Shown in pieces: positions 12,028 through 37,718 of a stretch of DNA of 64,000 nt. The position numbers and the translations under genes were made by a program. Under the pieces are notes generated by a model. That model did not search any database, was not told the origin of the DNA, and saw only the letters and a program-made list of their open reading frames with translations. The stretch covers positions 2,743,631-2,807,630 of the forward strand of contig NZ_CP119787.1 in the NCBI RefSeq assembly GCF_029338255.1. The letters run 5' to 3'. The stretch comes from Haloarcula halobia (GTDB lineage: Archaea; Halobacteriota; Halobacteria; Halobacteriales; Haloarculaceae). The stretch's first letter is position 1, and every line of letters starts with the position of its first letter.

Positions 12028-13629
12028 CTAATCGTCCGGTATGAGGTCTGCGGACACCAATTCCACAACCTCGCCGGCAGTCAAGACGGGTGCGTAGTCC
12101 ATCGGTCCGTCGACGGCAGCCTTCAACAGAAAGTCGGTGAGTCGCCAGATGTTGTGTAGCAGGACCGCGAACACGAGTAAAACAGCCTCACGCGGTAATC
12201 CTTCGAGGAAGTTTTCGCGAGGAAGTCGTTCTTGATGGACTTATACTCGTTTTCGATCTGCCAACGGCGACTATACCGGTGACAGAACGTCTCTGCCTCG
12301 TCTGGGCCTACCTTCAGATTCGTTGCGAATACGGCAGTTCCGTCTGTCTTCGTCGATGGCACGTGCAGAAACCGCATTGAGTGCGACCTCCACGTCAACT
12401 GATGTCCGTTCGACGGCCACATCACGGCCGTCTGCCTTCATCGTCTCAATAGCGTCCCGTTCAGAACTTGTGACACGCTTCGGAATGAGGTAGTTCACAT
12501 CGAGATTCGAGAGTGTCTGGTACACGTCCATCGAGTCGAACTCTCGGTCGCAGAGTACCGTCTCGATGGGGACGTGTTCGTTCGCTCGCCGGACCATCCG
12601 CCGGATGACGCGGTGAACCTGATTAGACTGGTTGTCGTCCCAGGCCGAACTCTCTCGGATGGGTTCGACGGCCAATACCAGTGGGATATTCTCGCCGACA
12701 ATCGAGAGCGTCGCGAACTTGAACGCCCGTTCCTCCTCAGCCTGAACCCCACTGACCATCGGCATTGCCTCGACCTCCCCGTGGTAAGGGACGGTCGTGA
12801 TGTCAATCGCTACGGTGACTGACCGTCGAAACGACGCTTCTTCGGCGAGTACTGCGCGCAACTGCTCACTAGCGCAGTCGAACCCCTCGATCGGGTCTTC
12901 GGGCTCGAACCGTTTGATCGCCCGTAAGTGCGTGTCACCGTGTGGACCGTATTCCTCGCCGCGTCTGTATTGGAAGCGAGCCGCACCCTGTGGTGTCCCA
13001 CAGCCGACCATTCCCATGAACGTCTGCAGTTCGAAAAACTGTGTATCGTCGTAGGAGGCGTTCTCTGCCCGTCCGGAATCAAACCTGTCGAAACCGTGGT
13101 CACGAGCTAAGCGTGTCGTCTGCTGGATCTGCTCGTCAGTGAAACCATCCTCTGACTCGTCTTCGTCCGGTTCGTCGGGGAACGAACTCGGGTCTCGCTG
13201 TGGCGTTACCACCTCGCCTTTCGGCCGAGCCTCGGGCACATTCAGATCCCGATCGTGGATTTCCTTGACGACGTAGTGGGAAGCCGTGGTGACGAACTCC
13301 CGGGTTGTCTCATCGAATCGGTTACGCCAAGTCCGCGAGAGCACCGATTCATCGGGGATTTTCTCCAAGTGGAAGGCAACTGCGAGTTCAGGATACTGGG
13401 CGAGCGAACGGTAACTCTCACCGGTGAGTTCGCGGTAGAGAAACAAGCGTACCATCCCCTCGAACGAGTGCGGTGCTGGATGCCACTCAGGGTAGCCGTC
13501 ATTGAGCGAATTGAACGACCCCTCCAGAGTTCGAAGAGCCGTGCAGAGTGACTGATCGGCTTTGAGTGCCTCTGTGAGTGTCACCCCGACGAGGTAGGCG
13601 TCGGTCAACCGTCGCTCCTGACAAGCCAT
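12028..13629 (-). pseudogene. IS4-family transposase (ISH8-like), two frameshifts
   Basis: The first 400-odd residues read intact from the ATG at 13629 (MACQERRLTDAYLVGVTLTEAL), including the DDE aspartates in VTVAIDITTVPY and ETVLCDREFDS. Near base 12385, after SVDVEV, the reading shifts by an extra base into the frame HSMRFLHVPSTKTDG. Near 12178 a missing base shifts it again, into the frame ending VFAVLLHNIWRLTDF and stopping at 12028. The YREK signature YSRRWQIENEYKSIK survives in the second frame. Restoring two bases gives a normal-length transposase, so this is a recently decayed copy. I could not place its terminal inverted repeats with confidence. Confidence 0.88.
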
Positions 13630-14031: not shown

Positions 14032-16170
14032 TCAGTCTGCTGTTTGGGTACCGGTGGGTGGCGTCACTCCCGAAAGTTCGGGGATGGATAGATCTACCCG
14101 GCGGAGCAGTTGCGCGTTGATGGCGACGATCACCGTACTCAGCGACATCAGGAGCGCGCCCACTGCGGGCGACAGCAGAATCCCGATCGGAGCCAATACG
14201 CCCGCTGCAAGCGGAAGTGCAAAGACGTTGTACCCGGCTGCCCAGACGATGTTTTCTTGCATTTTCCGGTAGCTCGCCTTGCTGAGTTTCACAAGGCGAA
14301 CCACGTCCATCGGGTTGTTCTGGACCAGGATGACGTCGGCCGACTGGACCGCGACATCGGTTCCACTTCCAATAGCGATTCCGACGTCTGCCCGTGTCAA
14401 CGCGGGCGCGTCATTGACGCCGTCGCCAACCATCCCCACGAGCTTGCCCTGATCCTGAAGTTCCTGTACTTTTTTGTCCTTGTCCTCAGGAAGCACCTCC
14501 GCGAACACAGTGTCGATGCCCAATTCGTCAGCCACCGCATCGGCGACATTCTGAGAATCACCGGTGAGCATTGCCACCTCGACACCCAGATCGTGCAGAG
14601 CATCGACGACGCGGTAACTCTCCTCGCGGATGACGTCGGCCATCGCGAACGCGGCGATCAACTCTCTGTCACGAACGAGATACACTACGGTCTGTGCGTT
14701 CTGCCCGGCTTCATCAGCGAAGCGCTGGAGGTGATCGGGAACTTCTCTATCGAGTTGGGTCAACAGGTTCGGGCCGCCGACGTACACTTCGTCCCCCTTG
14801 ACATTCGCGCGGACGCCACGGCCTTTGATCGCCTCGAAATCGCTCGCGTCAGGTGCAGTGAGGTCTTGCTCCGTGGCAGCCTCGCGGATGGCTCGCGCGA
14901 TCATGTGCTCGGAATCGCTCTCGACAGCCGCGGCCAGCGCAAGCGCGTCGTCCTCGTCAACATCGTCGACGGTTGCTATGTCGACAACACCGTGCTCGCC
15001 TTCGGTGAGTGTGCCTGTCTTGTCAAAGATGATGGCGTCCAGATTCCGTGCCTCTTCCATCGCGATTCGGTCGCGAACGAGCATTCCGTTCCGAGCGGCG
15101 AGTGACGTGTTGATTGCGACGACTAGCGGGATGGCGAGTCCAAGCGCGTGAGGGCAGGCGATGACGAGAACCGTGACGACGCGCTCGATAACCGTTGCAT
15201 TGAACGAGACCGCGAGCGTCCACGCGATTGCGGTTACGACTGCCGCCCCGAGCGCGACGTAGAACAGCCAGCCGGCAGCGCGGTCGGCCAGCACTTGAGT
15301 TTGAGACTTGCTCTGCTGGGCTTCCTCGACGAGTCGCATGATGCCCGCGAGCGTTGTCTTCTCGCCTGTCGCACCGACGCGCACGCGGAGACTGCCGTCG
15401 CCGTTGATCGTCCCACCGATGACTTCGTCGTCGGGCTCTTTCGAGACCGGTTTCGACTCACCCGTGATCATCGACTCGTTGACGTCCGAATCACCCTCCT
15501 CAACGATGCCATCAGCAGGGACGCTCGCTCCTGGACGGACGAGAACCAAGTCACCCTTGGCAAGTTCGTTCACTGGGATCTCCTCGGTGTCGCCGTCGTC
15601 GGTGATCCGCTCAGCAGTATCAGGCATCAACTTCGCCAACTCGTCGACAGCACTCGAGGCACGGCGTACCGATCGCATCTCGATCCAGTGCCCCAGCAGC
15701 ATAATATCGATAAGCGTGACGAGCTCCCAGAAAAACGCCGATTGCGTTGGGAAGACCACGCTCGCGAGGCTGTAGACGAATGCGACCGAAATGGCCATTG
15801 AGATGAGTGTCATCATCCCCGGTGACCGGTCTTTCAGCTCCGGCACTGCCATCTGGAGGAACGGAATCCCACCGTACGCGAAGACGACGACCGCGAAGAC
15901 GGGGTTGATCCACTCGCTGCCCGCAAATGCTGGGACGGAGAAGCCGAGCCACTCCTGCAGCGTCTCGCTGTACAGAAGCACTGGAATCGACAGAAGCGTT
16001 GAGACAAAAAAGCGCCGCCGAAACATCTGCTCGTGGCCCTCGTGCATCCCACCGTGCCCATCTTGTCCATCGTGCTGACTGTGTTCGCCGTGAGGCTGAG
16101 ATTCAGCCTCCGTTTCGTCGGGATGCGTATGGTCGGTCTCGTTAGCCTCCCTTTGGGGTTCGTCGTCCAT
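14032..16170 (-). CDS. copB: Copper-translocating P-type ATPase, CPH (CopB/P1B-3) type
   Basis: A 712-residue heavy-metal pump in the cell membrane. Residues 1-50 form a His/Glu-rich cytosolic tail ([21 protein letters not shown]) in place of an HMA domain. Other features are eight predicted membrane segments, the actuator motif TGES, the ion-site CPH motif in [14 protein letters not shown], the phosphorylation motif DKTGTLT, an HP-like SEH in [10 protein letters not shown], and hinge [13 protein letters not shown] pumps export Cu(II) or Cu(I). The ATG at 16170 is preferred to the TTG two codons upstream. It lies first inside the island next to the IS element. It is probably expressed on its own. 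Confidence 0.93.
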
Positions 16171-16287
16171 TACCAAACAATTGGCTCCGAGGGTGCTTCA
16201 ACGTGGAGGTTACTGTAAATTGACACGCCTTCTGAGCAGGCTGGTGCCTACCGGATGTTTACGAGACCGATATGGCCGGAGATGATC

Positions 16288-19989: not shown

Positions 19990-20070
19990 ATGTAATCGCA
20001 GCCCTGAATCACCGATTTCGAAGGTGTATCGTGGACAACAATAATGTATCCTGCGAGACGAAGCGGTCGT

Positions 20071-20661
20071 ATGCGCAATCTGGATGAAACCGACTTGGAA
20101 ATCCTCTCGTTGCTCGCCGATGACGCTCGCCGCCCGTTCAGCGATATTGGCGAGGAGGTTGGTCTGTCGGGGCCAGCCGTTTCTGACCGGGTCAAACGAT
20201 TACAGGAAGCTGGCATCATTAACAACTTCACGATTGACGTCAACCGGGCTCATCTCCGAGCTGGTGTTCCGGTATTTATTCAGGCCGAAATCGGCACAGG
20301 GTCGTTGGAGGCCGCCCGCAATCGAGTTCGGGAATCCGATGGCGTTGAACACGTCTTCACGACCTCAGAAGGTGATCTTTGGTTCTATGCCCGTGTCGAA
20401 GCCCAGAACGTTCGTCAGTGGGTAGATGGGCTCTTTAACGAGATAGATGTAGCGGATTACACCGTCACGCTAATTGACGAGATTGAATGGACACCGTCCG
20501 TTGATGGCGTCGAATTTGCACTCACCTGTGCCGAATGTAACAATACCGTCGATAATGAGGGTGAGACGACGCGAATCGACGGCGAGATCTATCACTTCTG
20601 TTGCCCGTCCTGTCTCACACGCTTCGAAGATCGGTATCAGCGACTCGAAGAGGGTACGTAA
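20071..20661 (+). CDS. Lrp/AsnC-type metalloregulator with C-terminal TRASH domain
   Basis: A 196-residue regulator. Residues 1-55 are an AsnC-type helix-turn-helix (LDETDLEILSLLADDARRPFSDIGEEVGLS), residues 60-140 an Lrp ligand/oligomer-like region, and residues 150-196 a TRASH metal-sensing domain with CAECNN and FCCPSC. Halobacterium salinarum has a TRASH-containing Lrp-type regulator that controls a copper ATPase, and this gene stands 93 bases before copA, supporting the same role. The ATG at 20071 is chosen because MRNLDETDLEIL begins the family. A TATA-like CAATAATG lies about 30 bases upstream. Confidence 0.9.
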   Translation: MRNLDETDLEILSLLADDARRPFSDIGEEVGLSGPAVSDRVKRLQEAGIINNFTIDVNRAHLRAGVPVFIQAEIGTGSLEAARNRVRESDGVEHVFTTSEGDLWFYARVEAQNVRQWVDGLFNEIDVADYTVTLIDEIEWTPSVDGVEFALTCAECNNTVDNEGETTRIDGEIYHFCCPSCLTRFEDRYQRLEEGT

Positions 20662-20754: not shown

Positions 20755-23361
20755 ATGACAAGCCAAACAATCCGTCTCGATATCACGGGGATGTCCTGCG
20801 CCAACTGTTCGGCGACGATTCAGGACACTCTCGAATCTCTCGACGGGGTATCGGAGGCGAATGCGAATTTCGCCACCGACGAGGGTTCCGTAACCTACGA
20901 CCCCGAAGAGGTATCGCTCCAAGAGATCTACGACGCGATTGACGAGTCCGGGTACGGTGCGGTCTCGGAGACGGTGACGATTGCCATCTCCGATATGACC
21001 TGTGCCAACTGCGCCGAGACCAACGAAACCGCTCTTGAGAGTACACCGGGTGTCGTTAACGCGAAGGTCAACTACGCGACCGATGAAGGGCAGGTCACCT
21101 ACAATCCGGCAGAGGTGTCGCTCGATGCGCTGTACGATGCTATCGAGGACGCCGGCTACTCGCCCGTCCGCGAAGATGGGGACGACGAAGAGTCGGGCCA
21201 AGACGCACGAGATGCCGCCAGACAGGCTGAGACCCGGAAGCAACTCAGGCTGACCCTCTTTGGGGCAATGTTGTCGGCACCGTTGCTCTTCTTCCTTATC
21301 GACAATTATCTGCTCGGTGGCACGATCGTCCCTGAAGCCGTCTTCGGCGTGGAACTCGGCTGGATTGAGTTCCTCCTTGCCACGCCGGTGCAGGCGATCC
21401 TCGGCTGGCCGTTCTACAAGAACTCGTACAAGGCGATCGTGAAGAACGGCCGCGCCAATATGGACGTGCTGATTGCGATCGGTTCAACAACGGCTTATCT
21501 ATACTCTGTGGCAGTCCTGTCTGGACTCATCGCGGGTGGGGTCTACTTCGACACGGCAGCCCTCATCCTCGTGTTCATTACGCTCGGTAACTACCTCGAA
21601 GCTCGGTCGAAGGGTCAAGCGGGTGAGGCCCTCCGGAAGCTCCTCGAAATGGAAGCCGAAACGGCGACCATTGTCCACGAGGACGGCAGTGAAGAAGAAA
21701 TTCCGCTTGAAGAGGTCACAACGGGTGACCGGATGAAAATCCGTCCGGGCGAGAAGATCCCCACAGACGGTGTTGTTGTCGACGGTCAGTCCGCCGTCGA
21801 CGAGTCGATGGTCACTGGCGAATCTGTCCCTGTAGAGAAAGAAGAGGGCGATGAGGTCGTCGGCTCGACGATCAACGAGAACGGCGTCCTCGTTGTGGAG
21901 GCGACGAAGGTCGGCGAGGACACGGCCCTCCAGCAGATCGTTCAGACTGTCAAGGAAGCCCAGTCGCGCCAGCCTGACATCCAGAACCTCGCGGACCGCA
22001 TCTCCGCGTACTTCGTGCCGGCGGTCATCGCGAATGCCCTATTCTGGGGTGTTGTCTGGTTCCTATTCCCCGAGGCTCTCGCCGGCTTCGTCGACTGGCT
22101 CCCGTTGTGGGGTCAGGTCGCTGGCGGCCCTGCTCCAGTCGGTGGGACCGTTTCGGTCTTCGAGTTCGCGATTATTGTCTTCGCGTCCTCGATCCTCATC
22201 GCCTGTCCCTGTGCACTAGGGCTGGCGACGCCCGCAGCCACGATGGTCGGGACGACTATCGGGGCCCAGAACGGCGTCCTGTTCAAGGGCGGTGACATCC
22301 TCGAGCGCGCGAAAGACGTCGATACAGTCGTCTTCGACAAGACGGGCACCCTCACGGAGGGTGAAATGGAACTCACCGACGTGGTCGTCTTCGATAGCGA
22401 TGGAAATGCGGTGACTGACGGTGGCGAGCCGACACCGGATGGTGGACAGCTCGGCACTCGTGAGCGCCTCTCAGAGGATGACGTGCTTCGGCTGGCGGCG
22501 ATAGCCGAAAGCGGGAGCGAACACCCCCTCGCCCGGGCAATCGTCGATGGGGCTGAAGAACGCGGGCTGGACGTGACTGAGCCTGACGACTTCGAGAACG
22601 TTCCGGGCCACGGCATCAAAGCGGTCATTGGTGACAGTGAGGTGCTGGTCGGCAACCGCAAGTTGCTGCGGGACAACGGCATCGAACCCTCGCCCGCCAA
22701 AGAGACGATGGAACGTCTCGAGAACGAGGGGAAGACAGCGATGCTGGTCGCCTACGAGGGTGAGCTCGTAGGTGTGGTCGCGGACGCCGACACAGTGAAA
22801 GAAAGCTCCAAGCAGGCTGTCACGGCCCTCCAAGGGCGGGGCGTTGACGTGATGATGATTACGGGCGACAATGAACGAACTGCCCGTGCGGTCGCTAAAC
22901 AGGTTGGTATCGACCCGAAGAACGTCCGCGCAGGAGTCCTTCCTGAGGACAAGTCTAACGCGGTCGACAGTATTCAAGATGAGGGGCGGCAGGCGATGAT
23001 GGTGGGCGACGGCGTCAACGACGCGCCGGCGCTCGCGGTGGCCCACGTCGGGACAGCAATCGGCTCCGGCACCGATGTCGCCATCGAGGCTGCGGACGTC
23101 ACGCTGATGCGAGACGACCCGCTCGACGTGGTAAAGGCGATCCGCATCTCGGACGCGACACTCCAGAAGATCAAGCAGAACCTCGTGTGGGCGCTCGGGT
23201 ACAACACGGCGATGATTCCGTTAGCGTCGCTCGGCCTCCTACAGCCCGTGCTCGCTGCAGCAGCAATGGCGTTCTCGTCGGTGTCGGTGCTGACGAACAG
23301 CCTGCTGTTCCGCCGATACACCCCCGATCACGACTACAAGCTCTTCGGATTCCTTCGCTAA
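20755..23361 (+). CDS. copA: Copper-exporting P-type ATPase CopA (P1B-1)
   Basis: An 868-residue membrane pump for Cu(I). Two N-terminal HMA domains carry [10 protein letters not shown] (about residue 10) and [10 protein letters not shown] (about residue 80). These are followed by eight membrane segments, the actuator [11 protein letters not shown], the ion-site motif in [14 protein letters not shown], phosphorylation site [16 protein letters not shown] and [10 protein letters not shown]. The conserved NxxxxP and MxxS-like residues of P1B-1 pumps occur in the last membrane pair ([24 protein letters not shown]). The ATG is at 20755. It follows its probable regulator and is the main copper efflux gene of the island. 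Confidence 0.96.
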
Positions 23362-27119: not shown

Positions 27120-27845
27120 CTACAGCCGTTCACGACGCTTCTGGAACTCTTCTTCGTCGATTTCTCCTCGTGCGTAACGGCGTTGGAGGGTTTCCATCGC
27201 GGAATCGTCACTCTCTGAAGGTGCATCCCCTCGAGCCGTTGCCCAGTAGAGGAGTCCGCCCACCAATCCCAGCATTCCGAGTGCCCCGCCGACGAACGGG
27301 ACACCGCCCCACCCGCCCCTCGAGCCACCCATCATGCCCCCTCCGCCGGGCCCCATCATGCCACCATCGGTGCTCCCGCTTCCGTCGACGTCCGAGCCGA
27401 CGGCCACGGCGCCGTTCTGGACGATCGTATCGCTATCGGGAACCTCGCCGTCGGGGATCGAGCTCTCTTCGGCCGGTCCCCCGGGGTTTCCGACGACGAT
27501 GCGGCCGACCATGCCGACCGACTTGTGTGGGATGCAATAATAGTCGTACGTGCCGGGGGCCTCGAACGTGTACTCGAAGCTCCCCTGCGAGATTGTGCCG
27601 CTATCGAAGGCCGTCCCGTCGGCGGGAACGCGGTCCGGATAGGCCGTCGCCGAGTGTGCACCGGCTGCTATCTCGAAGCGGACGGTCGTGCCGGGTTCGA
27701 CGTGGAGTCCGATCGGGTCAAAGTAGTTGTTGCCCATCTTCACGACGGGCGTCTCCTGTGCGCTCACTGGCTGAGAGAGGCCTGCGCTGGCGACTGCGCC
27801 GCCACCGAGCACTCCCAGAAACTGACGTCGATTATAGTTCGTCAT
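27120..27845 (-). CDS. Halocyanin (type 1 copper) with C-terminal membrane helix and SHOCT domain
   Basis: A 241-residue exported copper protein. Residues 1-30 are a Tat signal (NRRQFLGVLGGGAVASAG). Residues 35-120 form a plastocyanin-like domain with copper ligands His in GAHSATAY and Cys, His, Met in YYCIPHKSVGMVG. A linker with GGMMGPGGGGMMGG follows, then one membrane segment (about 185-210) and a SHOCT-like tail (METLQRRYARGEIDEEEFQKRRERL). Ordinary halocyanins lack the Met-rich linker and SHOCT tail. The tail would be cytosolic. The ATG is at 27845. It heads a group of metal-linked membrane genes read leftward. Confidence 0.9.
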   Translation of the reverse strand: MTNYNRRQFLGVLGGGAVASAGLSQPVSAQETPVVKMGNNYFDPIGLHVEPGTTVRFEIAAGAHSATAYPDRVPADGTAFDSGTISQGSFEYTFEAPGTYDYYCIPHKSVGMVGRIVVGNPGGPAEESSIPDGEVPDSDTIVQNGAVAVGSDVDGSGSTDGGMMGPGGGGMMGGSRGGWGGVPFVGGALGMLGLVGGLLYWATARGDAPSESDDSAMETLQRRYARGEIDEEEFQKRRERL

Positions 27846-27870
27846 GTGGTTTGAATTGGTCTGGTGGTCG

Positions 27871-28179
27871 TTATGTTCGCACGACATCGACGAGACGTTG
27901 GGCGAGTCCAGACGACTGCTGGGTCGCGCTCTCGATAGCTGACTCCAAGTCGTTCCGCTCGACGATGCCGATGAACTCGGCGGTCTGTTTACCGCTCGCG
28001 TAGACGAGTGTCGTCGGCGTCTTCCGGACGCCGTATTCCTCGGCCGTTTCCAGATCTTTCTGGATGTCGACCTCCCGGAACTCCACATCCGGATACGTGT
28101 CCTCGAGGCCGTCGTTTTTCTCCCGCTGTGTTGCGCATGCCCCACACGTCTGTTGGGTGAAGAGGATGACTTCGGTCAC
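27871..28179 (-). CDS. Thioredoxin-like protein (CGAC active site)
   Basis: A 102-residue thioredoxin-fold protein. It starts at a GTG at 28179 (TEVILFTQQTCGACATQREK), since the nearby ATG at 28181 is out of frame. The active site CGAC lies near residue 12, and the cis-proline loop is in VRKTPTTLVY. There is no signal peptide, so it is cytosolic. It is 25 bases upstream of the halocyanin gene on the same strand. A role in reducing cysteines for copper delivery or in repair of oxidised thiols is plausible, but general redox duty cannot be excluded. Confidence 0.85.
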   Translation of the reverse strand: MTEVILFTQQTCGACATQREKNDGLEDTYPDVEFREVDIQKDLETAEEYGVRKTPTTLVYASGKQTAEFIGIVERNDLESAIESATQQSSGLAQRLVDVVRT

Positions 28180-28354: not shown

Positions 28355-28690
28355 CTACTCCGACCGTTCGAGTTTGTCGCGGCGGGATTCGAACTCTTCG
28401 TCGGTGAGATCGCCGCGAGCGTACGCCGTGCGGAGTTCCTCCATCGCGGGATTTTGAGACGTCTGGCCTTCATTCGCACGTCGGAAGAGGAGGTAGCCAC
28501 CGCCGAGGAGGATGAGGAAGAAGATGATCTGAACGAGCATCCCGACGAACGGCCACCATCCGCTGTTGGTACCGCCGTAGCCCATCATTCCGCCGAATCC
28601 CATCCCCATCGTGAGCAACGGGAGCACGATGATCGCTCCGAAGATCAGGAGAACGATTGTCGTGGTGTCGAGCTGGTTCGACGAAGACAT
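28355..28690 (-). CDS. Met-rich two-helix membrane protein with SHOCT domain
   Basis: A 111-residue protein with the order membrane helix (about 10-27), Met/Gly-rich turn (LTMGMGFGGMMGYGG), membrane helix (about 48-68), then a charged SHOCT tail (MEELRTAYARGDLTDEEFESRRDKLER). The ATG at 28690 follows the DUF302 gene stop by six bases, so the two are co-transcribed. Both termini are probably cytosolic, with the Met-rich turn outside. SHOCT domains are short helical tails that mediate oligomerisation. Met clusters of this kind commonly bind Cu(I), but a direct role here is inference. Confidence 0.85.
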   Translation of the reverse strand: MSSSNQLDTTTIVLLIFGAIIVLPLLTMGMGFGGMMGYGGTNSGWWPFVGMLVQIIFFLILLGGGYLLFRRANEGQTSQNPAMEELRTAYARGDLTDEEFESRRDKLERSE

Positions 28691-28696
28691 CGAAGA

Positions 28697-29113
28697 TCAG
28701 GCCTCCGGCGTGGATTCGTATTCGTCGCCGACAGCCGAGAGAACACGCTCGAAGCGTTCGGTGACTTCGGTCGCGATGGAGTCGAGCCCATCGTTGTCTG
28801 CGATCCCGACTAATTGCTGCGGATCAACGGCACTCACGACGATATCGCCGTCATCGGTCTCGTAGACAATGACGTTACACGGGAGGAGTGCGCCGAGTTC
28901 GATTTCTTCGGTCAGTCCCTCGTATGCCAGCGGGGGATTGCATGCACCGAGAATGCGATACTGACGGAATTCTTCGCCGAGTTTCTCCTTGAGCGTCGCC
29001 TGGATGTCGATGTCACAGAGGACGCCGAATCCTTCGTCTTTGAGCGCTGCCATTGTCGTGTCGACGACGTCGTCGAACTCGCCGGCTACTTCTGTTTGTA
29101 TTGTATAGTCCAT
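28697..29113 (-). CDS. DUF302 domain protein
   Basis: A 138-residue single-domain protein starting MDYTIQTEVAGEFDDVVDTTMAAL at the ATG at 29113. Family marks are GFGVLCDIDIQATLKEKLG, YRILGACNPPLAYEGL and LLPCNVIVYE. The two conserved cysteines, in ACNPP and LPCNV, face a cavity in known folds. DUF302 genes often lie next to metal or sulfur genes in archaea and bacteria, but the biochemical role is unproven. It is tightly linked to the downstream SHOCT gene, supporting a shared envelope-metal role. Confidence 0.88.
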   Translation of the reverse strand: MDYTIQTEVAGEFDDVVDTTMAALKDEGFGVLCDIDIQATLKEKLGEEFRQYRILGACNPPLAYEGLTEEIELGALLPCNVIVYETDDGDIVVSAVDPQQLVGIADNDGLDSIATEVTERFERVLSAVGDEYESTPEA

Positions 29114-29211
29114 TATGTGCAATACTCATTCTATATGGTTAAGGGTTGGGTTCCAACACAACGGCCGTTGAGTGAGAGTGTGACGTCTCGGCTGAACAGC
29201 AACGGATCCAG

Positions 29212-29568
29212 TCATCCGGTTCGTTCGAGTTCTTTTCGCCGTCGATCGAATTCATCGTCCGAGAGATCACCGCGGGCGTAGCGCTCACGGAGAACCGATA
29301 GCGACTGCTCGTCGCTCCCGCCGGATTCTCTATTGAGGAGCGCATAGACGATGTAGAGCGGGACGGCGAGGAGAATCCCCATCCAAAGCAGTCCCCAGAG
29401 CCCCATCGCTCCGCCGAAGAGGCCCCAGCCGCTCCCGCCCATCATCCCGCCACTGTACCTCCCGCCACCGTGGGCAGCAGCCGTTCCAGTCGCTGCGACC
29501 AGCAGCGGGACGGCGAGTAACGCGAGTCTACGAGCAGTGCGTCCGATGTGAGTGATGAATTGCGTCAT
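29212..29568 (-). CDS. Exported/membrane GMMG-SHOCT protein
   Basis: A 118-residue protein. Residues 10-32 look like a cleavable signal or anchor ending AAAHGGGRYS. Then come a GGMMGGSGWGLFGGAMG segment, one membrane helix (about 58-78) and a SHOCT tail (SVLRERYARGDLSDDEFDRRRKELER). The ATG is at 29568. It parallels the other SHOCT proteins here in layout and motif but has its own signal-like start. A His next to the signal cleavage site (AAHGGG) could bind Cu(II) through an ATCUN-like site, which is inference. Confidence 0.83.
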   Translation of the reverse strand: MTQFITHIGRTARRLALLAVPLLVAATGTAAAHGGGRYSGGMMGGSGWGLFGGAMGLWGLLWMGILLAVPLYIVYALLNRESGGSDEQSLSVLRERYARGDLSDDEFDRRRKELERTG

Positions 29569-29625: not shown

Positions 29626-29970
29626 TCAACAGTGGCCCTGCCCGTACATCCCGCCGTTGTAGTTGCCGTCAGTCCTGTCGTGGTATCTCTTGTCTGCCCC
29701 GTCGTGGTATTCCTCGTCAGCCATGTCCTGGGCCATCTCGTCGACAGTCACACCCATGTGCGACTCCATCCACTCGACGCTACCAGGACCCATGTGTTCG
29801 GTCATCTGCACTTCCATCCGGGTCGCCCAGTCATCTGCGGTGGCATTGTCCGTGGGCGCGTCGTCAGCGGTCGTGTCGTTACCGTGTGCGCTGACAACGG
29901 GTACGGCAAACGCGAGTCCGACGATCGCGAGCGCCACGAACAGCCATCCTCCGAGGTTTCGGTTGGTCAT
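29626..29970 (-). CDS. Secreted Met/His-rich small protein
   Basis: A 114-residue protein starting MTNRNLGGWLFVALAIVGLAF with a signal peptide ending near VVSAHG. The mature part is acidic and full of Met and His (MEVQMTEHMGPGSVEWMESHMG) and ends NYNGGMYGQGHC. No family is recognised. Its composition and place between SHOCT and regulator genes suggest an extracellular metal binder. The terminal cysteine could be a ligand or a crosslink. The ATG at 29970 is preferred to the GTG at 29985. A TATA-like GGTTAAAAG lies about 90 bases upstream. Confidence 0.75.
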   Translation of the reverse strand: MTNRNLGGWLFVALAIVGLAFAVPVVSAHGNDTTADDAPTDNATADDWATRMEVQMTEHMGPGSVEWMESHMGVTVDEMAQDMADEEYHDGADKRYHDRTDGNYNGGMYGQGHC

Positions 29971-30138
29971 TGTCTTTTGCCTCACGTAGTCATACGATGG
30001 GTTCGGGGTTATCCTCGTGGGTGTAAATCCAAACAGCAGACCGTTCGAGAACGTCTATAACCGCTTTTAACCGTTTTGCTCCACGAAGGTCGTTCATACC
30101 TGCAGAATTCGAGAGGGAGAGCGCCCGATAGATAGGGA

Positions 30139-30738
30139 CTATTGTCCCGTGTATTGCTGCCGAAGATCATCACTCGGATATACGCGATAAGTCCGACCTT
30201 GTCGTTCCCGATACAGCAGACCGCGCTCCTCGAGTGAACTCACGGTCTGGCTCACTTTGCTCTTCGAAAACTCAGATCGATCCCGAAGTTCGATCTGTGT
30301 GATTCCGGGAGACTTCAGGACTGGTTCGAGGACGCGTCGTTCATCATCCGGTAAGAGATCGAGCACGCGCGCTTGCGGATTCGATTCTGGGTTGATAGAC
30401 GTCGTTGGTGAAGTTTCCTGATTCATCGATGTAGGTGTTGTCGCCGATGTCTGATCGGAATCGATATGCTCCGCTGAGTTCGCCTCTTCCGAGTCGGTGA
30501 GATTTCCTCGAACCACGTAATAGACGCCACCGATAACACCTGCGACCAGCAGAGTTCCGACCACATACCAGAGAGGGTTTGGACCGTGCATCGCCCCCAT
30601 AGATGAATCCATCATCGAACCCATCGATTGCTCGATAGCCCGACGCTGCTGATAGGCCCGCCAGCTGAGTGCCCCGCCGGCTAGGAGGACGAATCCGAGG
30701 ACCACACCGACGGCAGTATCTGCTCGACGGCGTTTCAT
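30139..30738 (-). CDS. Membrane-tethered winged-helix protein with Met-rich outer loop
   Basis: A 199-residue protein. Two membrane helices (about 9-27 and 56-77) flank a loop containing MGSMMDSSMGAMHG. The N-terminus is positively charged (MKRRR), so the loop should face outside. After a Ser/Thr-rich linker, residues 125-195 form a winged helix (LPDDERRVLEPVLKSPGITQ, SKSKVSQTVSSLEERGL) of the MarR/DUF7343 kind. The natural reading is a one-component sensor that detects an external ligand, perhaps copper at the Met cluster, and binds DNA inside. The ATG is at 30738. The neighbours are metal genes. The sensing role is not proven. Confidence 0.82.
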   Translation of the reverse strand: MKRRRADTAVGVVLGFVLLAGGALSWRAYQQRRAIEQSMGSMMDSSMGAMHGPNPLWYVVGTLLVAGVIGGVYYVVRGNLTDSEEANSAEHIDSDQTSATTPTSMNQETSPTTSINPESNPQARVLDLLPDDERRVLEPVLKSPGITQIELRDRSEFSKSKVSQTVSSLEERGLLYRERQGRTYRVYPSDDLRQQYTGQ

Positions 30739-30863
30739 ATGGCGGCCCCGAATTGCGAGATTTGACTATTCATACCGTCCATTTGGGCGCGTCAGGTGTG
30801 ACAATTGCGGATTGAAACTGTGATGATGAATCCCTTCTCAGCGGAATAACCACAGTGCGATCA

Positions 30864-32258
30864 TCAGTGGTCATGGTCGTGATCGTGACTTGATATCTGC
30901 GGGCTTTGATCAGCAAATTCCGTTGGTTCTTCTTCGAACGTGCGCTTGCAGGTCTTCGAGCAAAAATGGTACGTCGCCCCATCATGGGACGCGCTCGGCC
31001 CCTCATCGTCGGTTCGCATCCCACAGACCGGATCACGATACTGACCCGGTGCACCGAGGCCACGCCGGTACACGTACAGCAGGAACCCGGAGAGCGCGAA
31101 GGCGATGAGGTTGAGGTAGAACGTGTAGTTGAGTTCGAAGTACGTCTGCTCGGTTGCCGTCTCGCCACCCGCGAGGTCCGGGATGATGCCGAAGGCGTCG
31201 AATAGCAGCTCCATTAGGAAGCCGGTGAACGCCATCGTGACGAAGAAGACGCCGAGGATGTACAGCATGATCTTCCAGCCGTAGTACTTCCGGTAGACGT
31301 TCAACACGGGGATCGTGATGAGGTCAGCGTAGACGAACGCGATGATCCCGGCGAAGCTGACGCCACCGCCCCACAGCGCGACGGCGAACGGGACGTTCCC
31401 CATACTACCGACGAAACTGAGCACGGCGATGATGACGCCCATGACGGCGTTCTCGGCAGTCACGAGCAGGCCGTCGCCCTGGATGAACAGGGTGTTCCAG
31501 ACCCACTGCGGGACGAACACGATGACGAACCCGGAGATGAGAAAGCCGGCAACGATGTCCTTCCAGATCATCGACCACTCCTTACGGTACTGATTCCCGA
31601 CCTTGTACCAGCCACCCCACGACAGCAACTCGTCACGCCACCCGCCGCTACTCGACGTCTCCTGGCGGTAGGTTTCCATACAGCCCTCCGAGCAGAATTT
31701 GAGCGTCTCACCGCCGTCGGTCGTGAGCGTGTACTCGTCTTTCCCCTCCATCCCGCAGGTGGGATCTTCCGTGACGCCCGATGCGTGATCACGTTCGTTG
31801 AGCGTTTCTCGGACTTCGTTAAACAGGTTCTCGGGGAGCGTCAGGTGAACGATGACCGCCATGACGGCGATGAGGATCAGGCCGCCGAGCAACTCCGCGA
31901 GGAGGAATTCCCACCCTAGCAGGATCAAGATCATCAGTCCGAGTTCGACGATGAGGTTCGTCGACGCGAACATGAACGCGAGGAAGTTCACCGCGTGCGC
32001 CCCCTTCTTGAACAAGCCCTTCCCGATGGCGAGGGCCCCAAAACTACAGCCACTACTCGCTGCTCCGAACACAGTCGCCTTGGTTAGTCCAGTTAGATCG
32101 CCCTCACCCAGCACCTGTGCCATCCGTTCCTTCGAGACGTAGACTTGAACGAGACTCGTTATCGTGAGCCCCATAATGATCGCCCACGCCGCCGTCCAGA
32201 GAAACCCGACACCGATGCGGAGAGATTCGAGGACACCATCAATTATCGTCGCCTGCAT
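30864..32258 (-). CDS. DUF318-type permease with two YHS/TRASH-like metal modules
   Basis: A 464-residue integral membrane protein. The first permease half (about 1-135) includes FGAASSGCSFGALAIGKGLFKKGA. A cytosolic YHS/TRASH-like module follows (DPTCGMEG to FCSEGCMETY, about 165-200). The second permease half (about 230-420) includes GSMGNVPFAVALWGGGVSFAG. A second module (DPVCGMRT to FCSKTCKRTF) and a HDHDHDH tail end the protein. This family (SO_0444/ArsP-like) exports metals or metalloids, and the Cys and His modules point to soft metals such as copper. The ATG is at 32258, alone on the strand after the tethered regulator. Confidence 0.88.
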   Translation of the reverse strand: MQATIIDGVLESLRIGVGFLWTAAWAIIMGLTITSLVQVYVSKERMAQVLGEGDLTGLTKATVFGAASSGCSFGALAIGKGLFKKGAHAVNFLAFMFASTNLIVELGLMILILLGWEFLLAELLGGLILIAVMAVIVHLTLPENLFNEVRETLNERDHASGVTEDPTCGMEGKDEYTLTTDGGETLKFCSEGCMETYRQETSSSGGWRDELLSWGGWYKVGNQYRKEWSMIWKDIVAGFLISGFVIVFVPQWVWNTLFIQGDGLLVTAENAVMGVIIAVLSFVGSMGNVPFAVALWGGGVSFAGIIAFVYADLITIPVLNVYRKYYGWKIMLYILGVFFVTMAFTGFLMELLFDAFGIIPDLAGGETATEQTYFELNYTFYLNLIAFALSGFLLYVYRRGLGAPGQYRDPVCGMRTDDEGPSASHDGATYHFCSKTCKRTFEEEPTEFADQSPQISSHDHDHDH

Positions 32259-32420
32259 GGTTACATTATCGTAGGAATCATCTATTGCAATTGTCGTTAG
32301 AAAACATCCGCTGCCAGGGTGTCCAAACTATGGAAACAAAAGTATGAACCGGGACGATCTCGCGAAAAGAGAGTGAAAATCAAGCTCTCGCTACCTTCGC
32401 AGACAGAGCGCGCGCTTCGA

Positions 32421-34809: not shown

Positions 34810-35334
34810 TCAGGGGTCTCGGTGAGCACGTACGAACGCACGTCGCAGGACGGTCAAGAGGACGTACGTCTCGTACTTCTGGGTTCGGCAGTGCTCGCAG
34901 GGCTGCATATCCGCGACTATCTCCTCGATCGAATCGTCGTACTCATCCGTGAGCGTGGTGAGCGCGTCCGTAATCTGGGGCTGGACGGCGTCGATCATCT
35001 CCTCCACGGCGGCGTCAGCCGAATCCGGCAGCGAGTACGAAAGGACGATAGTATTCGCATGATAGTACTTCGTCGTCCCACCGCGCCCCTCTTCGAAGCG
35101 CACGACGTCGACGAGACCGGCGTCCCGGAGCTCGTTGATGTGGTGTCGAACCGTATTTTCCGTCCGGTCGACGCCGCGGTCCTCAAGACGGCTGTGGACC
35201 TCGGTCGCAGTCGAGGCCTCCTCAGACAGAATATCGAGGATCATTGCTCGCATCGGTTCGTCGATGGCGTCCGAAATCCGGGTGTCTCGCACCGCGATGT
35301 CGTCGAGACGGTGGTCGGTATCGGAATTATTCAT
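34810..35334 (-). CDS. ArsR-like winged-helix regulator
   Basis: A 174-residue regulator from the ATG at 35334 (MNNSDTDHRLDDIAVRDTRIS). Residues 20-90 form the winged helix (MRAMILDILSEEASTATEVHSRL, TENTVRHHINELRDAGLVDVV, and wing EGRGGTTKYYHAN). A helical part carries MQPCEHCRTQ near residue 150, whose CxxC could sense metal. It is divergent from the HMA-ATPase pair with about 200 bases between, the common arrangement of ArsR-type repressor and metal pump. Metal identity cannot be read from sequence. Confidence 0.87.
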   Translation of the reverse strand: MNNSDTDHRLDDIAVRDTRISDAIDEPMRAMILDILSEEASTATEVHSRLEDRGVDRTENTVRHHINELRDAGLVDVVRFEEGRGGTTKYYHANTIVLSYSLPDSADAAVEEMIDAVQPQITDALTTLTDEYDDSIEEIVADMQPCEHCRTQKYETYVLLTVLRRAFVRAHRDP

Positions 35335-35492
35335 ATAGGAACTGAGAGTGAGAACGAGGGAAAAGGTAGCGGGACGCGATCGAAGAGGCAACCACCGAGG
35401 AACTAGTCCCGAACGGATCCGTGAGGTCGAAAGCCCTAGACGACCTGTTTGACTATTCCAACAGCTTATTTCCGCATTCAAACATATCATCT

Positions 35493-35533: not shown

Positions 35534-35749
35534 ATGAGCAACACAACCCAGTTCCGCGTCCTCGACTTCGATTGCCCGACCTGTGCAAGCACCGTCGAAC
35601 GCGCCCTCTCAAACGTCGACGGCGTCCAGCACGTCGAAGTCCACTACGCGACCGGCCGCGTCGAGATCGAGTACGACGACAGCGTCGCCGACCCCGACGC
35701 CTTCGCACAGACCATCGAAAACCAGGGGTACACGCCCCAGCCCGCCTAA
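35534..35749 (+). CDS. HMA-domain metal-binding protein
   Basis: A 71-residue heavy-metal-associated domain: MSNTTQFRVLDFDCPTCAST, with metal ligands in DCPTCA near residues 14-17, and the terminal loop IENQGYTPQPA. The aspartate before CxxC (DFDCPTC) is typical of Zn/Cd/Pb-type domains more than of copper ones (which prefer MxCxxC). It ends five bases before the pump gene, which itself lacks an HMA domain, so this is effectively the pump's detached N-terminal domain. Confidence 0.92.
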   Translation: MSNTTQFRVLDFDCPTCASTVERALSNVDGVQHVEVHYATGRVEIEYDDSVADPDAFAQTIENQGYTPQPA

Positions 35750-35753
35750 TACC

Positions 35754-37718
35754 ATGAACACACAATCGGTCATGCAGTACTACCGGAAACACCGGAGGGC
35801 CATCGTCACGGCGACGAGCGGCGTCCTCTACGGCGGTGGCTGGAGTCTCGGCTACCTCACAAGTTTAGAAATGGCAAGCGCCGCCATCCTCGTCCTGGCG
35901 ACGACCGTGGGTGGCTACGACATCGCCAAGACCGCCTACCACGAGGTCACCAACCGGACGCTCGGCATCAAGACGCTGGTGACGCTGGCTGCAATCGGGG
36001 CCATCGTCATCGGGGAGTACTGGGAAGCCGCCGCCGTCGTCTTCCTGTTCAGCCTCGGCAGCTACCTCGAAGGCCGAACGATGCGCAAGACCCGGACAGC
36101 CCTCCAGAAGCTCCTGGAGATGACCCCCGAGACGGCGACCGTCCGTCGCGACGGGGAACTCCAGGAGGTCCCCGCCCGCGAGGTCGAGGAGGGTGAAGTC
36201 GTCATCGTGAAGCCAGGCGGGAAGATTCCGGTCGACGGTGACGTCGTCGACGGCGAGAGCAGCGAGGGGTCGGAGACCCCTCGAGCGAACGGGGAACCCG
36301 TGAGCGCCGTCAACCAAGCACCAGTCACCGGCGAGAGCGCGCCCGTCCACAAGGCCGACGGCGACGAGGTCTACGCCGGGACGGTCAACCAGGAGGGCGC
36401 ACTGGAGATCCGAACGACGGGTGCGGGCTCGGATACGACGCTCGAACGGATCATCCGTCGCGTCGAGGAGGCTCAAGAGGCTCAGTCGCCCACGGAGAGC
36501 CTCATCGACCGGTTCGCGAAGTACTACACGCCAGCCGTCATCGTGCTGGCCATCGGCGCGTATGCAGTCACGCAGAACGCGATCCTGTCGCTGACGCTGC
36601 TGGTCATCGGCTGTCCCGGGGCGCTGGTCATCGGGCCGCCGGTCAGCATCGTCTCCGCCATCGGGAACGCCGCCCGGTCTGGCGTACTGATGAAGGGCGG
36701 CGAACACCTGGAACGCGCCGGCAAGATCGACCTTGTCGCCTTCGACAAGACCGGTACCCTCACGAAGGGCGAGACCACCGTCGCCGACGTCGAGGGGTTC
36801 GGCGTTGCTGATGACGAGGTCCTCTCGCTCGCGGCGACCGCCGAGAAGAAGAGCGAACACCACCTCGCCGATGCCATCGTCGACGCGGCCCGCGAGCGAC
36901 CGACTGCTGCGACGGACGGCGGAACGACGGTCGCCCAGGCGGACGATACGGACGGTGGGCGCAGGTCGGTTCCCGATCCGGGCGACTTCGACGTGGTCGC
37001 TGGCAAGGGCGTCATCGCCCATGCCGATGGCCAGGAAGTTGTTGTCGGCAACCGCGCACTGCTGGACGACCGCGACATCGACATCCCCAGTCGGGTCGCC
37101 GACTACGTCCGCGAGCGTGAGGGGCGCGGCGAGACGGTCGTCCACGTCGTCCGCGATGGGGACATCATCGGTGCAATCGCGCTGCGGGACGAACTCCGGG
37201 AGTCTGCCCCTTGCGTCGTCGCGGCACTCCAAGACGCCGGCATCGAGACGGTGATGCTCACCGGCGACAACAAGCGGACGACCGCCGCCGTCGCCGAGGA
37301 GGTCGGCATCGACGAGTACCGCGCCGAACTGCTCCCCGAGGACAAACAGACGGTCATCGAGGGCTACCAGGCCGACGGGCACGTCGTCGCGATGGTCGGC
37401 GACGGTATTAACGACGCGCCGTCGCTGGCGACCGCCGATGTCGGCATCGCGATGGGTGCTGCGGGAACGGATACCGCCATCGAGACGGCTGACATGGCGT
37501 TGATGGCCGACGACCTCGAACGCATCCCGTACGCGGTCAAACTCAGCAAGGCGACGCGCTGGAACGTCCTCGAGAACGTCGGTCTCGCGGTGCTGACCGT
37601 GACCGTCCTCCTCGCGGGCGTGCTCACCAGCTACGTCACCCTCGCTGCCGGGATGCTGGTCCACGAGGCCAGCGTCCTCCTCGTCATCCTCAACGGGATG
37701 CGACTGCTCCGCTACTGA
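35754..37718 (+). CDS. P1B-type metal ATPase with CPG ion-site motif
   Basis: A 654-residue pump from the ATG at 35754 (MNTQSVMQYYRKHRRAIV) with eight membrane segments, actuator VTGESAPVHK, the ion-site motif in VIGCPGALVIGPPVS (CPG where most have CPC), phosphorylation site DKTGTLT, KSEHHLADAI, and hinge GDGINDAPSL. The overall layout is ZntA-like (Zn, Cd, Pb), as is the partner HMA domain. A 15-residue extra segment (SEGSETPRANGEPVS) sits inside the actuator domain, 8 residues ahead of TGES. It matches a 45-base in-frame insertion. Whether the pump remains active is open. Confidence 0.9.
   Translation: MNTQSVMQYYRKHRRAIVTATSGVLYGGGWSLGYLTSLEMASAAILVLATTVGGYDIAKTAYHEVTNRTLGIKTLVTLAAIGAIVIGEYWEAAAVVFLFSLGSYLEGRTMRKTRTALQKLLEMTPETATVRRDGELQEVPAREVEEGEVVIVKPGGKIPVDGDVVDGESSEGSETPRANGEPVSAVNQAPVTGESAPVHKADGDEVYAGTVNQEGALEIRTTGAGSDTTLERIIRRVEEAQEAQSPTESLIDRFAKYYTPAVIVLAIGAYAVTQNAILSLTLLVIGCPGALVIGPPVSIVSAIGNAARSGVLMKGGEHLERAGKIDLVAFDKTGTLTKGETTVADVEGFGVADDEVLSLAATAEKKSEHHLADAIVDAARERPTAATDGGTTVAQADDTDGGRRSVPDPGDFDVVAGKGVIAHADGQEVVVGNRALLDDRDIDIPSRVADYVREREGRGETVVHVVRDGDIIGAIALRDELRESAPCVVAALQDAGIETVMLTGDNKRTTAAVAEEVGIDEYRAELLPEDKQTVIEGYQADGHVVAMVGDGINDAPSLATADVGIAMGAAGTDTAIETADMALMADDLERIPYAVKLSKATRWNVLENVGLAVLTVTVLLAGVLTSYVTLAAGMLVHEASVLLVILNGMRLLRY
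36261..36305 (+). repeat. 45-base palindrome-rich in-frame insertion in the ATPase gene
   Basis: Between codons for VVDGES and AVNQAPVTGES lie 45 bases made of two small hairpins: AGGGGTC-GGA-GACCCCT (36265-36281), then ACGGG-GAA-CCCGT. AGC flanks the insertion on both sides as a possible target duplication. Homologous pumps go straight from DGES to AVNQAPITGES. The composition resembles short GC-rich hairpin repeats scattered between haloarchaeal genes. Confidence 0.6.

Follow-up and report, generated by a model that had tools for sequence, protein, structure and literature searches.

How a haloarchaeal cell might read copper outside its membrane directly into gene expression is the question raised by a small gene of Haloarcula halobia, located within a stretch of 64,000 nucleotides that was analysed as a whole and is hereafter referred to as the window. 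The original prediction placed at positions 30139-30738 a protein with two helices around a loop of five Met and one His, followed by a disordered linker and a MarR/DUF7343-like winged helix. The ORF, here called MSEN, is present at these positions on the minus strand; it starts with ATG and encodes 199 amino acids, comprising two predicted transmembrane (TM) helices, a 14-residue Met/His loop between them and a C-terminal winged helix (Table 1). Among the plasmid records inspected, MSEN is labelled merely as 'MarR family transcriptional regulator', and the membrane sensor part has thus been overlooked in the existing annotation.

Table 1. Positions in the window of MSEN, its segments, the promoter elements and the genes nearby.
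Feature	Positions	Strand	Basis or remark
MSEN, membrane-anchored MarR/DUF7343 regulator	30139..30738	-	ORF, Pfam, conservation, AlphaFold
MSEN TM helix 1, residues 8-27	30658..30717	-	hydropathy; AlphaFold helix 3-40; KRRR before, on predicted inside
MSEN Met/His outer loop (predicted outside), residues 38-54	30577..30627	-	conservation, alignment
MSEN TM helix 2, residues 55-76	30511..30576	-	hydropathy, AlphaFold
MSEN C-terminal winged helix, residues 131-188, nearly invariant	30175..30348	-	Pfam, Foldseek, conservation
12-codon upstream ORF (MNSQISQFGAAI, then stop)	30735..30773	-	TGA overlaps MSEN ATG (ATGA)
GCAATTGTC box, -33 from upstream-ORF ATG, BRE/TATA position; candidate operator	30800..30808	-	promoter comparison
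ArsP_1 permease, YHS/TRASH-type domains, HDHDHDH tail	30864..32258	-	domain matches
GACAATTGC box, -34 from permease ATG; candidate operator	32287..32295	-	promoter comparison
SECR promoter palindrome ACGTTCTCGAACGGTCT, downstream of TATA-like element	30038..30054	-	promoter conservation
SECR, secreted Met/His-rich protein, conserved WMExxMTEHMGP...EWMESHMG motifs	29626..29970	-	alignment, genome co-occurrence
SHOCT membrane protein, Met-rich N-terminal part	29212..29568	-	Pfam, locus comparison
DUF302 protein	28697..29122	-	Pfam
SHOCT membrane protein (second)	28355..28690	-	Pfam
Thioredoxin family protein	27871..28179	-	annotation of pNG600 relative
Plastocyanin/halocyanin-type copper protein with SHOCT	27120..27850	-	domains; start inside long ORF, approximate
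Soluble HTH_20/ArsR-like regulator adjoining ATPase	34810..35490	-	domain match
CopZ-like HMA chaperone	35534..35749	+	domain match
Heavy-metal P-type ATPase, CPG replacing CPC	35754..37718	+	domains

Hydropathy analysis of MSEN revealed two hydrophobic segments (averaging windows starting at residues 6-10 and 55-59), and an AlphaFold model built on 42 homologues comprises a helix at residues 3-40, the loop, a helix at 55-89, the disordered linker at 80-117 and the winged helix at 123-188, with a mean pLDDT of 66 overall (low to moderate) and of 84-90 in the winged helix. The five Met are at positions 39, 42, 43, 47 and 50 and the His at 51, M39 forming the end of helix 1 in the model. The winged helix expected after the linker was recovered by Pfam above cut-off as DUF7343 (E 1.5e-9, 38 bits, cut-off 27.6) and as MarR_2 (E 1.2e-8, 35.4 bits, cut-off 27), and a Foldseek search with the model matched MexR, HosA, SlyA and SmtB (E 7e-5 to 1e-3), which represent the MarR and ArsR/SmtB folds; the assignment to the MarR/DUF7343 winged helices therefore holds by sequence score and by fold. 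Both ends of the protein are predicted to lie inside and the loop outside, because of the N-terminal Arg/Lys residues and the need for contact with DNA, and topology prediction gave this arrangement and not the opposite one. The positive-inside charges that had been claimed hold as an average over the homologues, with a mean K+R of 2.7 ahead of TM helix 1 versus 1.4 in the loop; the loop of the window protein itself carries three Arg and that of many homologues none. A related protein (L141), in which a long N-terminal region is followed by a single TM helix and the winged helix is C-terminal, is consistent with this orientation.

An alignment of the 42 homologues was examined for the conservation of the putative ligands. 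M42, M43, H51, G52 and P55 are invariant, so that the conserved Met expected of a sensor loop are indeed found, M39 and M47 are conserved in at least 90%, and Cys does not occur in any of the 42 sequences. Column entropy averages 0.59 bit across the loop, compared with 2.25 for the linker and 0.32 for the winged helix; judged from the alignment, the loop is among the best-conserved parts of MSEN and its pattern is not due to chance. An automated loop finder detected at least three Met plus His in the loop of 71 of the 73 members, and one of its two misses (L211) has MMGSMMDGSSTMGG at the loop in its sequence, the finder being in error there. Divergent haloarchaeal loci (20 matches) keep a Met/His loop with changed length and spacing, such as EMMGHGGMGHGFH and GMHASMHG; several of them adjoin a P-type ATPase, and a divergent member with a EMMGHGGMGHGFHP loop adjoins two P-type ATPase ORFs. 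The N-terminal module was detected in 62 of 194 haloarchaeal genomes, and among those of its matches that could be set against the full-length search it belongs to MSEN.

A phylum-wide profile search identified relatives with two TM helices and a winged helix outside the Halobacteria, with the loops SHHYMMMGPYY, THHMMMHSPYY and HGHMGMMGMMG and a mixed gene context. Next to those with HHYMMM-type loops (L187-L197) lie genes for cytochrome c and a SAM methyltransferase, a gene weakly matching CopD and, by eye, a YHS-like ORF and a DUF411-like ORF. In contrast, a Met/His loop is present in none of 11 haloarchaeal paralogues with two TM helices and a winged helix, all 11 loops together containing one Met and one His. 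Such paralogues (L131-L140), which form a family of their own, have the same layout as MSEN (TM, short loop, TM, linker, winged helix), whereas their outer loops, for example NPTPVVVSVGDNG...FRYTEVG, are without Met/His and their winged helix is about 34% identical. Mean winged-helix identity to the haloarchaeal MSEN is 40% for the group outside the Halobacteria versus 34% for the Met-less haloarchaeal paralogues. Since the winged-helix tree has too few columns to fix the deep branching order, the Met/His loops of the Halobacteria and of the other lineage may be convergent.

The genomic context of MSEN is dominated by copper-related functions. As had been noted, the gene lies between a secreted Met/His protein (SECR) downstream and an ArsP_1/YHS permease upstream, all on the same strand. 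Among 110 fetched loci, many of them near-identical copies and some short, the permease lies near MSEN in 85 cases and SECR in 84, while 75 have a SHOCT protein nearby, and the cluster partners further include a multicopper oxidase, cupredoxin, CopZ and P-type ATPases. From its domains, the permease is likely to function in the efflux of copper or other heavy metals; a COG0701 permease of Haloferax alexandrinus, which may be an ortholog, is silver-induced (PMC10694973). Of the 194 genomes, 62 carry MSEN, among them 45 of the 47 with SECR (Fisher p 2e-27, kinship among genomes being ignored). In the window, positions 12000-42000 form a lower-GC stretch with the character of a copper island, which also encodes a P-type ATPase with a CPH motif (14032-16176), an Lrp/TRASH (AsnC/TRASH) regulator (20044-20661), a CopA-like P-type ATPase with two HMA domains (20755-23361) and an ORF that is transposase-like by eye, with no Pfam match (12271-13629). 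The ATPase adjoining the CopZ-like chaperone has GCPGALVIGPP at the expected CPC position.

Between haloarchaeal genera, stretches of the copper cluster as long as 12.6 kb share 99-100% identity (L002-L028), and a match was obtained in 36 plasmid records. The order on one annotated plasmid is permease, MSEN, multicopper oxidase, SECR, SHOCT, DUF302, SHOCT, a cation-transporter/HMA-type gene and a P-type ATPase; pNG600, a related copy, additionally encodes thioredoxin, plastocyanin, an AsnC regulator and YHS and DUF411 proteins. The copy in the window belongs to a long contig, where it lies within the lower-GC stretch. By these sequence comparisons, the MSEN cluster is a recently mobile copper island that has undergone recent horizontal spread.

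The promoters were compared for a DNA motif, which the original prediction had expected upstream of 29970 (SECR), 30738 (MSEN) and 32258 (the permease). This held for two of the three: the MSEN and permease promoters of the window share the same 9-mer in opposite orientation (CAAYTG-type), while the SECR promoter has a different palindrome, and a motif common to all three was looked for and not found. AAYTG at -33 to -35 is present in 74% of the distinct MSEN promoters (counted from the upstream-ORF ATG) and in 38% of the distinct permease promoters, as compared with two of 687 other gene starts, both from one family of membrane proteins encoded in these clusters. It is a short box, and many permease promoters have it in altered form or not at all. 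The haloarchaeal BRE and TATA elements have been given as CGAAA and TTWT (PMC4983044); the box is unlike these yet occupies the same place, and may be either an operator superimposed on the core promoter or an atypical form of the latter.

In the SECR promoter, a AAACGNTTA element, possibly BRE/TATA, is followed by the conserved palindrome, which is absent from the MSEN and permease promoters. The palindrome is near-invariant (ACGTTCTCGAACGNTCT); upstream of it stands a conserved CGAATTC...ATGAACG element, and the roughly 90 bases downstream include a 5' leader that is likewise conserved (TTCACACCCA...GATAACTCC). As a regulon marker it was rejected, a genome scan allowing at most one mismatch having returned three other sites only: two are internal to long ORFs, and the third directly precedes an ORF for a secreted protein.

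A 12-codon upstream ORF precedes MSEN in 58-59 of 65 distinct promoters, and most of the exceptions, of 14, 15, 18 and 28 codons, keep the frame and the overlap. It starts at the position where a leaderless transcript would begin and is probably leaderless. Translational coupling through termination-reinitiation at ATGA overlaps has been reported for archaea (PMC6728339). Since most divergent members are without one, the upstream ORF was rejected as an ancient feature and belongs to the main copper-island clade.

With conserved soft-metal ligands at a predicted outer position and a DNA-binding domain predicted inside, we consider it rather likely that MSEN is a one-component, membrane-anchored, kinase-free regulator responsive to Cu(I) or Ag(I), with the loop sensing outside and the winged helix acting on the promoter boxes. 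As the loop contains the sole conserved soft-metal ligands, Cu(I) or Ag(I) on the outer side of the membrane would be the likely signal. The outward-facing loop, with three to five Met and the His, would bind Cu(I) (or Ag(I)); once bound, the metal would probably affect how the TM helices pack or the state of the dimer, which in turn would alter the binding of the winged helix to the CAAYTG-type boxes of its own and the permease promoters. The position of the box on top of the core promoter makes repression that metal relieves somewhat more likely than activation. Through MSEN, copper beyond the membrane would probably be translated straight into gene expression. Against this reading count the shortness of the box and its frequent loss or change in permease promoters, its possible nature as a core-promoter variant, the different promoter element of SECR, the most constant partner, the mixed gene context outside the Halobacteria, the low to moderate confidence of the structure model and the possible convergence of the Met/His loops of the two groups.

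The strong association with the neighbouring genes also admits a reading in which the loop reports on a partner rather than on free copper outside, taking up copper from SECR or the permease or contacting them, so that efflux load or the copper buffering of the envelope would be monitored. Such a role is in keeping with the very strong co-occurrence and adjacency with SECR, with the adjoining permease and with a small loop whose few ligands suit transfer; relatives that have no detectable SECR or permease nearby nevertheless still carry the Met/His loop, and we regard this role as unlikely. Regulation could, on the other hand, be left to the cytosolic sensors of the island, namely the AsnC/TRASH and HTH_20 proteins, with the MSEN loop merely anchoring or passing copper and the winged helix binding DNA regardless of metal. 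VNG1179C, an Lrp protein with a TRASH domain, is a known copper regulator of Halobacterium (PMC3551603) and a protein of the same type is encoded in the window, but the HTH_20 regulator is near MSEN in only 25 of the 110 loci, some of which are short, and such a division of labour appears quite improbable.

It would be very improbable, too, that the loop senses oxidants through methionine oxidation, for example by hypochlorite or copper-driven radicals, rather than metal. Conserved surface Met at a predicted outer location would suit such a sensor, but the invariant His and the His-His-x-Met-Met-Met loops of the relatives fit a metal site better, the gene context is one of copper, and methionine sulfoxide reductase was not seen among the annotated neighbour families. 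Direct sensing of Cu(I) or Ag(I) by MSEN, if true, would provide the haloarchaea with a second, outward-looking copper sensor that needs no kinase. It would also be a very small model of how DNA binding responds to a ligand held by a hairpin of two helices, and a compact biosensor for copper or silver might be made from it. Chances appear even that MSEN represents an undescribed archaeal family of extracytoplasmic sensors for Cu(I)/Ag(I) that work without a kinase, their sensor being cut down to a Met/His loop of about 14 residues; the family would occur in the Halobacteria and in one or more further lineages of the phylum and would have spread on plasmids together with copper-resistance islands.

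Assignment to the known metalloregulators was also considered. MSEN scores 25 bits against the ArsR/SmtB metalloregulator model (NF033788, cut-off 55) and 13.2 bits against CopY/TcrY (cut-off 121.95) and has no Cys, so that both were rejected; the MarR family proper, of soluble dimers with terminal dimerisation helices, was rejected as well, only the C-terminal winged helix being of this type and the N-terminal half consisting of membrane segments and linker. In a literature collection with few subscription journals, nothing on DUF7343 was found, nor any paper describing an archaeal copper sensor of the one-component type like MSEN. Haloarchaeal copper regulation described so far, among the literature found, is cytosolic (Lrp/TRASH). 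Regulators of the VNG1179C type resemble MSEN, in the role proposed for it, in being haloarchaeal and in controlling efflux genes in response to copper, but are cytoplasmic and sense through the TRASH domain (PMC3551603), whereas MSEN is membrane-bound and without Cys.

Among the systems that read copper outside the membrane, CusS/CusR is comparable to the proposed MSEN loop: CusS senses periplasmic Cu(I)/Ag(I) via His/Met sites near the TM helices and in a flexible loop (PMC10100754). Unlike MSEN, it belongs to a two-component system of histidine kinase and response regulator and has a large sensor domain. ArnR and ArnR1 of Sulfolobus, also archaeal, share with MSEN the build of a one-component regulator in the membrane, in which two TM helices are combined with an HTH domain; however, their HTH is N-terminal and their TM helices C-terminal, they possess HAMP-like and sensor domains, and they control the archaellum and pili, not metals (PMC6396743). 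With the domain order reversed and no HAMP-like or sensor domain, MSEN was not assigned to this type. Transmembrane transcription regulators (TTRs), of which ArnR and ArnR1 are studied archaeal representatives and which are known to be widespread among both bacteria and archaea (Demey et al. 2023, PMC10269533), combine one or more TM regions and a DNA-binding domain in one protein without a kinase, as is predicted for MSEN, but the main text of that survey names neither MarR nor copper. Transmembrane one-component regulators are thus known as a class, and what appears to be new in MSEN is the putative sensor, a short Met/His loop tied to copper genes.
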